A stretch of DNA of 64,000 bases, taken from an uncultured Flavobacteriaceae bacterium (lineage in GTDB: Bacteria; Bacteroidota; Bacteroidia; Flavobacteriales; Flavobacteriaceae). The notes under the pieces are model-generated. The model saw nothing but the letters and a program-made list of their open reading frames with translations, had not been told where the DNA came from and searched no databases. The position numbers were made by a program, and so were the translations under genes. The stretch covers positions 1-64,000 of the forward strand of contig CAJJDI010000006.1 of assembly GCA_905182835.1 (NCBI GenBank), written 5' to 3'. Shown piece by piece: positions 32,061-33,757 of this stretch. The first letter of the stretch is position 1; every line of letters starts with the position of its first letter.

Positions 32061-32552
32061 TTATTTTTTCAAAGAAATAGGATTAACTAACTCTGTAGTA
32101 ATGTATGCTTTCGGGTTATTGTCATTTATAATTTTCAAAACTTTTTTTAATTTTTTTCTAGAAACTATACACCAATAAATTTTAACTGCCCCATCTCTAC
32201 CTTCTCCATTAATAACAGTAACAGCATATCCATTTTCTCTTAACACATCAGCTAAGTTATTAGATTCTATTGCAGTAAATACCTTAATGACCATACTGCC
32301 GACTCCAATTACACCCTCTAGATATGAACCAAGTATAGTGCCAGCAGCAAAACCTGAAGCATACCCAGCAATTAAAACAGGGTCAGCAACGTTTTGTATT
32401 ACTTTTGAAACTGCAATAATCCATATAGCAGACTCAACTAAACCAATTAAAGCAGCATGAAATGGTTTATTTCTTGAAACTAATAATGCTCTTAAGGTAC
32501 CTAAACTCTGATCTGCCAGTCTAAGTATGAAAATGAAAAGTGTTGAAATTAT
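32061..32552 (-). CDS. UPF0316/DUF2179 membrane protein with a non-standard start codon
   Basis: From the only ATG (32294) the frame gives just 77 residues of a DUF2179 domain. The same frame stays open up to 32564 and encodes the missing N-terminal membrane part: ELIISTLFIFILRLADQSLG, an RALLVSRNKPFHAAL stretch and a hydrophobic GLVESAIWIIAVSKVI, then IAGYASGFAAGTILGSYLEG. This matches UPF0316 proteins (three membrane helices plus cytoplasmic DUF2179). No ATG, GTG or TTG exists in that part. The likely start is AUA (32552-32550) or AUU (32549-32547), each overlapping the UAA stop of the upstream phosphorylase gene. Length is then 163 or 162 residues. Function of the family is unknown. Confidence 0.8.
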   Translation of the reverse strand: MISTLFIFILRLADQSLGTLRALLVSRNKPFHAALIGLVESAIWIIAVSKVIQNVADPVLIAGYASGFAAGTILGSYLEGVIGVGSMVIKVFTAIESNNLADVLRENGYAVTVINGEGRDGAVKIYWCIVSRKKLKKVLKIINDNNPKAYITTELVNPISLKK

Positions 32553-33424
32553 AAGTTCGATAAGCTATTTAGTGTTAACAGAATTAATTTATTTATTGTT
32601 TTACTAGGATTTTCACTGTAAGTGCCATTTTCTCTATTTGCTAAAATTGCATTTAATGAAATCGCTTCATGACCTAATATTTTTGACATACCATAGATAA
32701 TTGCTGTTTCCATTTCTAGATTAGTTACTCTATCATTGATAAATTGAATTTTATTAAGTTCTTTAATAAAATCATTATTAGAAGACTGCATTCTTATTGA
32801 TCTACCCTGACTACCGTAAAACCCATTACAAGTTACTGTAACACCACTAAAGTCAGCTATATCCTTTAATTTCTTCATTAAATTATCAGAACATTTAAAG
32901 CATAAAGGTGAAGTTTTATTGTTGTTTTCTTTATAATTATCTAAAAATTGGTCCACAGAGTTATCTGTATGCTCCTTGCTTATTTTATAATTATTTAGAA
33001 ATCCATCTATATCAATTGCCTTAGAGCTAATTAGTAAGGAGTCTACAGGTATATCATCTTGGATTGAACCAGATGTGCCGATTCTGACTAAATTTAGCTT
33101 AGATAGTGAAGTTTTAACATTTCTAGTGTTGAAATCTATATTAACCAAGGTATCTAATTCATTTAATACTATGTCAATATTACCTGAACCTATTCCGGTT
33201 GATAAAACTGAAAGTCTAGTGCTTTTATATATACCAGTAACAGTTTTAAATTCTCTATTTTGGATAGTAAATTCAATTGAGCTAAAATACTGAGTAATCA
33301 AATCTACTCTTGCTGGATCACCGACTAGTATAATTGTATTAGATATATTTTCAGGCTTTAATTTTAAATGGTAAACACTACCATCTTCATTAAATATTAA
33401 TTCGGATTCTTTTTGCTTTAACAT
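32549..33424 (-). CDS. Nucleoside phosphorylase (PNP/UDP family)
   Basis: The protein has 291 residues. The phosphate-binding block ILVGDPARVDLI (about 31-42), STGIGSGNIDIVLNEL, VRIGTSGSIQDD and the ribose/base segment VTNLEMETAIIYGMSKILG mark the uridine/purine nucleoside phosphorylase family, most like uridine phosphorylases. It would split nucleosides with phosphate for salvage. Which base it prefers cannot be told. It follows the SUI1 gene by 9 bases and overlaps the start of the UPF0316-type gene. Confidence 0.87.
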   Translation of the reverse strand: MLKQKESELIFNEDGSVYHLKLKPENISNTIILVGDPARVDLITQYFSSIEFTIQNREFKTVTGIYKSTRLSVLSTGIGSGNIDIVLNELDTLVNIDFNTRNVKTSLSKLNLVRIGTSGSIQDDIPVDSLLISSKAIDIDGFLNNYKISKEHTDNSVDQFLDNYKENNNKTSPLCFKCSDNLMKKLKDIADFSGVTVTCNGFYGSQGRSIRMQSSNNDFIKELNKIQFINDRVTNLEMETAIIYGMSKILGHEAISLNAILANRENGTYSENPSKTINKLILLTLNSLSNL

Positions 33425-33433
33425 ATTTTGATT

Positions 33434-33757
33434 TTACCCTCCAACTCTCTTTGTTTCAAAGCCTTTAGAATTTAATATTTTCATAATTTTATCCCTATAA
33501 TCACCTTGAATTATAATATAATTTTCTTTTACAGTTCCACCAACACTAAGAAATTTTTTCAAATCTTTTGCAATAATTTTTAGTTCACTATTATTAATCT
33601 TGAAATTTTCTAAAATAGTTATAGGCTTGCCCTTTCTTTTCTCATACTTACAGATAATGGGTTCATCTTGAGATTGTTTAACCTCATCTGTAGAATAATT
33701 ATTGTCAGTTAACTTATGATCTGGGAAGAAATTTTTTAATTGATCTTGTAAATCCAT
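33434..33757 (-). CDS. Translation initiation factor SUI1/eIF1-like (YciH)
   Basis: The protein has 107 residues. The C-terminal 70 residues form the SUI1 fold, with YEKRKGKPITILENF, LKKFLSVGGTVKEN and IIQGDYRDKIMKILNSKGF. The N-terminal 35 residues are polar and probably flexible. Bacterial YciH binds the small ribosomal subunit and can influence start-codon fidelity in E. coli tests. Its ATG overlaps the stop of the dioxygenase gene by one base. Its presence near a gene with a possible AUA/AUU start is a coincidence worth noting only. Confidence 0.88.
   Translation of the reverse strand: MDLQDQLKNFFPDHKLTDNNYSTDEVKQSQDEPIICKYEKRKGKPITILENFKINNSELKIIAKDLKKFLSVGGTVKENYIIIQGDYRDKIMKILNSKGFETKRVGG

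Follow-up and report, generated by a model that had tools for sequence, protein, structure and literature searches.

An AUC codon inside the upstream phosphorylase gene is the probable translation start of a UPF0316-type membrane protein gene in a flavobacterial genus

Where does translation begin in a conserved reading frame that offers none of the usual start codons over its first 89 codons? The question is raised by a minus-strand frame at 32564..32061 of the 64,000-nucleotide stretch of DNA analyzed here (the window), which comes from an uncultured Flavobacteriaceae bacterium. The frame runs for 167 open codons directly after the TAG at 32567-32565, and its first ATG lies at 32294-32292 (codon 90), with no ATG, GTG, or TTG before it. 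A preliminary description of the window had given the segment upstream of this ATG as 86 codons; the count is 90 from the opening of the frame and 89 from the ATC at which we place the start. Codon use predicts a run of 89 codons free of ATG, GTG, and TTG with a frequency of ∼5%, and the missing canonical start is, taken alone, mildly unusual and weak evidence; the real evidence is conservation.

The same description had noted coherent helices and a conserved block upstream of the only ATG, and both were confirmed by domain searches. The encoded protein matches Pfam DUF5698 (32328..32498, minus strand; residues 23-79 of the 167-codon frame; E=1e-17, 64.8 bits against a cut-off of 27.5) and then Pfam DUF2179 (32085..32225, minus strand; residues 114-160; E=4e-9, 36.6 bits against a cut-off of 22.8), which is the domain order of UPF0316 proteins. 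It also matches the NCBIfam PRK04164 group (E=1.5e-50), where its 171.5 bits fall below the curated cut-off of 179 for PRK04164.1-2, and we therefore do not claim the narrow subfamily name. In the structural model (mean pLDDT 86), helices at residues 2-29, 33-56, and 61-85 are followed by a PII-like alpha/beta domain, so that the N-terminal membrane helices and C-terminal PII-like domain of the family are both predicted. The modeled alpha/beta domain matches PstA/DarA and the DUF2179 structure 3HLU by fold only, with no solved relative found by sequence at E<=0.1. PstA/DarA proteins are c-di-AMP receptors. Together, the gene at 32061..32561 (minus strand, 166 aa) is predicted to encode a functional, full-length UPF0316-type membrane protein with three helices and a PII-like domain. 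It shares domains, length, and start position with other DUF5698-DUF2179 proteins, and in this genus only the start codon and the gene neighbors differ.

The segment 5' of the first ATG (32295..32561, minus strand) holds the three helices, and we compared its codons 6-89 pairwise among the three marine species of the genus that carry the gene. Here, dN/dS was 0.031, 0.037, and 0.047, and the differences at codon positions 1/2/3 numbered 3/1/24, 9/3/43, and 8/2/39, placing 24/28, 43/55, and 39/49 of them at third positions. Across codons 90-166, dN/dS was higher (0.083-0.119). The low dN/dS of 0.03-0.05 upstream of the first ATG indicates that this part is translated and functional. It is hardly credible, then, that only the soluble DUF2179 part, of 77 aa, is made from the ATG at 32292..32294 (minus strand): although this is the first ATG, GTG, or TTG of the frame in the window, purifying selection is stronger on the codons upstream of it than on the rest, and the start in close relatives lies 89 codons earlier. 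A start at the aligned position in relatives, which the preliminary description had named as an outcome that would overturn its own reading, was not seen, and the ATG at codon 90 is best taken as an internal Met. The expectation that gene callers limited to ATG, GTG, and TTG would truncate the protein and lose its membrane domain is likewise supported.

The position of the start was examined by alignment with relatives. The window's ATC at 32561-32559 (minus strand) aligns exactly with an ATG in one Bacilli locus and in 29 distinct loci from Flavobacteriales of other genera; the typical start in these relatives reads ATG GAA/GAG TTA/CTA ATA, against ATC GAA CTT ATA in the window. In the protein alignment, which is gap-free there, column 1 holds the Met of nine relatives against an Ile in each of the three genus members. 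Each of the three genus members in which the gene was found has the ATC, namely the window, G001 (JAPKAF010000009.1), and G003 (CABXVR010000004.1), which are separate assemblies of three species. Thus, an AUH codon (AUA, AUU, or AUC) occupies the homologous start in place of ATG, GTG, or TTG, it is conserved across three species, and the frame behind it is under selection. We consider it probable that translation of the DUF5698-DUF2179 gene starts at AUC 32561-32559, aided by reinitiation.

Comparing the 5' codon of close relatives had been proposed as a check, and it did return an ATG, though opposite ATC rather than opposite the ATA or ATT that had been favored. A non-canonical AUH start was therefore upheld, and its placement was not. 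A start at AUA 32552 or AUU 32549, at the upstream stop, would shorten the protein by three or four residues, and we regard it as unlikely. The two codons (ATA ATT, 32547..32552, minus strand) lie where ATAA and TAATT resemble the ATGA and TAATG coupling motifs, and the ATA at codon 4 is kept in all three genus members; however, the ATG of relatives lies three codons upstream of the ATA, relatives commonly have ATA as an internal codon at the same position, and codon 5 is ACC in G003. The supposed coupling-site mimics thus fall on internal codons 4 and 5. A CTG at codon 15 was also considered as a start and rejected, as it occurs in the window only and is replaced by CTA and CTT in the other two species.

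An ATC that is one base off ATG in a metagenome-assembled sequence could also stem from a mistake in sequencing or assembly, or from gene decay in which the start was lost. An assembly error, which the preliminary description had raised, is very unlikely because the identical ATC occurs in three independent assemblies of three species, none with an ATG at the start, and decay is opposed by the dN/dS of 0.03-0.05; we give the two together very little credence.

The gene was found in the two further genus species at 93% and 86% identity. Many members of other Flavobacteriales families have it too, with identities mostly of 55-68% and with different upstream neighbors. No match to it was found among the sampled family members outside the genus, and G002 and G004, two incomplete genomes of the same genus, had no match to the membrane gene, the phosphorylase, or the UDG neighbor and are thus uninformative. 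Given that no sampled family member outside the genus has a match and that the upstream neighbors differ elsewhere, another Flavobacteriales family probably donated the gene, whose ATG would then have become ATC. Separately, one homolog (G336:C1:329818-330316; L041/L043) is spread over two frames with internal TAA codons, a pattern that could stem from a frameshift, from decay, or from an error in the sequence.

Upstream of the membrane gene lies a PNP/UDP-type nucleoside phosphorylase gene (32549..33424, minus strand; 291 aa; Pfam PNP_UDP_1, E=4e-22) that ends with the TAA at 32551-32549, and the same gene order is found in G001 and G003. In all three species, the last 13 nt of the phosphorylase gene, ATCGAACTTATAA (32549..32561, minus strand), also belong to the membrane gene: the AUC start opens this overlap, which contains the phosphorylase tail and stop as well. 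The overlap with the phosphorylase, proposed earlier as the natural place for coupling, was accordingly borne out. The 15-nt junction TTATCGAACTTATAA is invariant in the three species despite a dS of 0.5-1.7. Its bases read TTA TCG AAC TTA TAA for the phosphorylase and ATC GAA CTT ATA for the membrane gene; in this genome, TCG makes up 3.5% of serine codons and ATC 9.5% of isoleucine codons. Such invariance would be expected if both overlapping readings matter.

The same invariance, with two frames overlapping inside it, might instead reflect ribosomes slipping into the -1 frame close to the 3' end of the phosphorylase gene, so that DUF5698 would be made as a fusion to the phosphorylase and would need no start of its own. 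This is quite improbable, however, as TTATCGAACTTATAA contains no classical slippery heptamer, relatives have a separate ATG-started gene next to other neighbors, and two overlapping readings also account for the invariance. The last residues and the stop of the phosphorylase seem to have been supplied by the 5' end of the membrane gene, since phosphorylases of other genera end differently (in KLTE or KIAD before the stop). An ATG in place of the ATC would turn a phosphorylase Ser into Trp, and it can be speculated that selection on the phosphorylase tail drove the loss of the ATG. A SUI1 (eIF1/YciH-like) gene is located just upstream of the phosphorylase gene (33434-33757, minus strand). In eukaryotes, eIF1 acts in start-codon choice.

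How might a ribosome select this AUC? No Shine-Dalgarno (SD)-like motif was detected in the 25 nt upstream of it, and all frames are free of ATG within 60 nt in both the window and G003. An alternative promoter with a leaderless start was considered and rejected, as neither Bacteroidetes promoter motif (TANNTTTG or TTTG) occurs in the 300 nt upstream; so was a strong RNA structure at the junction, structure at the start region and junction being weak (z +0.7 and +0.8). SD sequences are absent from mRNAs of F. johnsoniae and other Bacteroidetes (PMC6847099). In E. coli and Haloferax, reinitiation depends on genes that overlap or lie very close together (PMC10666635), and the present genes are on the same strand and overlap by 13 nt in three species, the UAA (32551-32549) beginning 10 nt 3' of where the AUC begins. 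AUC initiation aided by termination-reinitiation is therefore the best candidate mechanism: (i) ribosomes finishing the phosphorylase at the UAA would most likely be those that re-initiate at the AUC; (ii) the AUC would be decoded as formyl-Met, presumably by the initiator tRNA; (iii) reinitiation would compensate for a weak codon where, as in this lineage, SD signals are lacking; and (iv) expression would be kept low and tied to that of the phosphorylase. Initiation at the AUC, the coupling, and the low expression are all inferred from sequence.

Low expression would be expected because initiation factor IF3 guards against weak codon-anticodon pairs, for which it is a known gatekeeper (PMC10158994). 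In vitro, weakly paired AUC starts gave little or no product at normal IF3, in tests that lay outside the AUC/CAU pair itself (PMC10158994), and in E. coli, overexpression of IF3 lowers reinitiation (PMC2268962). Coupling in E. coli was unchanged on depletion of the ribosome recycling factor RRF, and reinitiation as its main route is disputed (PMC7538156); moreover, a 13-nt overlap lies outside the commonest overlaps (-4, -1, and -8), which, like the IF3 and RRF results, counts against the proposed model.

To place this gene among others of its kind, a codon-usage scan for coding frames without ATG, GTG, or TTG near their beginning was carried out over 751 kb (∼half of the genome; 596 scored frames). 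Besides the membrane gene, it returned prfB, infC, a DEDD exonuclease, an RsmI-like methyltransferase, and an ArgD-like aminotransferase, of which the last four appear to be started by AUA, AUU, or AUC. Two matches served as controls. The prfB (RF2) frame (G000:C6:95753-96808; L096:11753-12808) opens without a start codon, which is consistent with the known classical programmed +1 frameshift and makes it a positive control; infC (G000:C4:97171-97743; L092:17171-17743), the second control, has an ATA or ATT start, of the type already known for IF3 genes, in all five genus members.

For the DEDD exonuclease, which carries a GIY-YIG part (G000:C4:37918-39294; L089:17918-19294), alignment of relatives places the start at an ATA preceded by an ATC or ATT codon. 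Across 30 Flavobacteriaceae genera, the aligned start is TTG in 13, GTG in 1, ATT in 14, ATC in 1, and ATA in 1, and never ATG; the 16 genera with an AUH codon there have no ATG, GTG, or TTG before codon 32, which suggests a conserved weak start. The RsmI-like 16S rRNA methyltransferase (G000:C4:85443-86162; L092:5443-6162) has no ATG, GTG, or TTG near its start in five genus members and begins with ATC or ATT followed by AAA GGT, 12 nt past the upstream stop, its exact start codon being less certain because starts vary among relatives. In the ArgD-like aminotransferase (G000:C10:76413-77606; L152:16413-17606), the ATT overlaps the upstream TAA (ATTAA); the start is ATA in G003 and, among 30 genera, ATG in 21, ATT in 4, ATC in 2, and another codon in 3.

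Relative to the upstream stop, the starts of all five AUH genes range from a 13-nt overlap to ∼12 nt beyond it. Among ATG genes, 28% lie within -20 to +15 of an upstream stop, giving 0.28^5 = 0.002 for five of five, a post hoc value from five genes and a scan partly biased toward late-opening frames. The same scan over 400 kb each of G018 and G046 returned no clear AUH start, a difference too small numerically for us to claim a genus effect. Only a single tRNA-Met, of unclassed type, was present in the part scanned.

AUH starts, AUC and AUU among them, have been described before in bacteria, in infC, cvfC1, ccpN, and Borrelia pncA. The closest parallel is infC, which starts with AUU in E. coli, ATC in Streptomyces (PMC5472188), and AUA in S. 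aureus, and shares with the present gene a conserved AUH start, expected weak initiation, and expected IF3 sensitivity; however, infC is autoregulated by its own product, whereas here the product is a membrane protein and the start, unaided by an SD, lies inside an upstream gene. S. aureus cvfC1 (AUU) and ccpN (AUA) also have conserved non-canonical starts outside infC, which gave ∼10-30% of AUG expression in reporters, but they rely on extended SD motifs (PMC13009471), while the present gene belongs to an SD-less lineage and overlaps its upstream neighbor. Streptomyces sigR likewise has an unusual start in an operon, shown there to hold the protein dose low, though its codon is GTC, repressed by IF3, and sigR comes first in its coupled pair (PMC5472188). 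The annotated PncA (BBE22) of Borrelia burgdorferi was truncated owing to its AUU start, which is experimentally supported (PMC13398362), whereas the evidence here is comparative. Finally, described termination-reinitiation pairs share the same-strand overlap of stop and start but have canonical starts and mostly -4 or -1 nt overlaps (PMC6728339, PMC10666635), in contrast to the 13 nt and AUC observed here. Our literature search returned no on-point paper linking Bacteroidetes or Flavobacteria to AUU or AUC starts, and none of the papers searched described such a start in an overlapping gene that lacks an SD. That setting, like the repeated occurrence of AUH starts in this family, looks under-recognized.

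In summary, an ordinary protein family is paired here with an unusual start, an AUC that is well supported by comparison with relatives. It is a conserved one, in a gene other than infC and in SD-less bacteria, where the usual explanation for weak starts, a strong SD, does not apply; if it is confirmed, how the ribosome picks the AUC, and whether finishing the overlapping gene supplies the missing signal, would become testable. Proteins of AUH-start genes risk truncation or omission in annotations, and in the present case the whole membrane part would be lost. For the family at large, the balance tips slightly toward SD-less Flavobacteriaceae regularly using AUU, AUC, and AUA starts at or just after upstream stops, with the weak start of at least one gene, the exonuclease, acting as a conserved, family-wide dose control and callers restricted to ATG, GTG, and TTG truncating or missing the proteins concerned.
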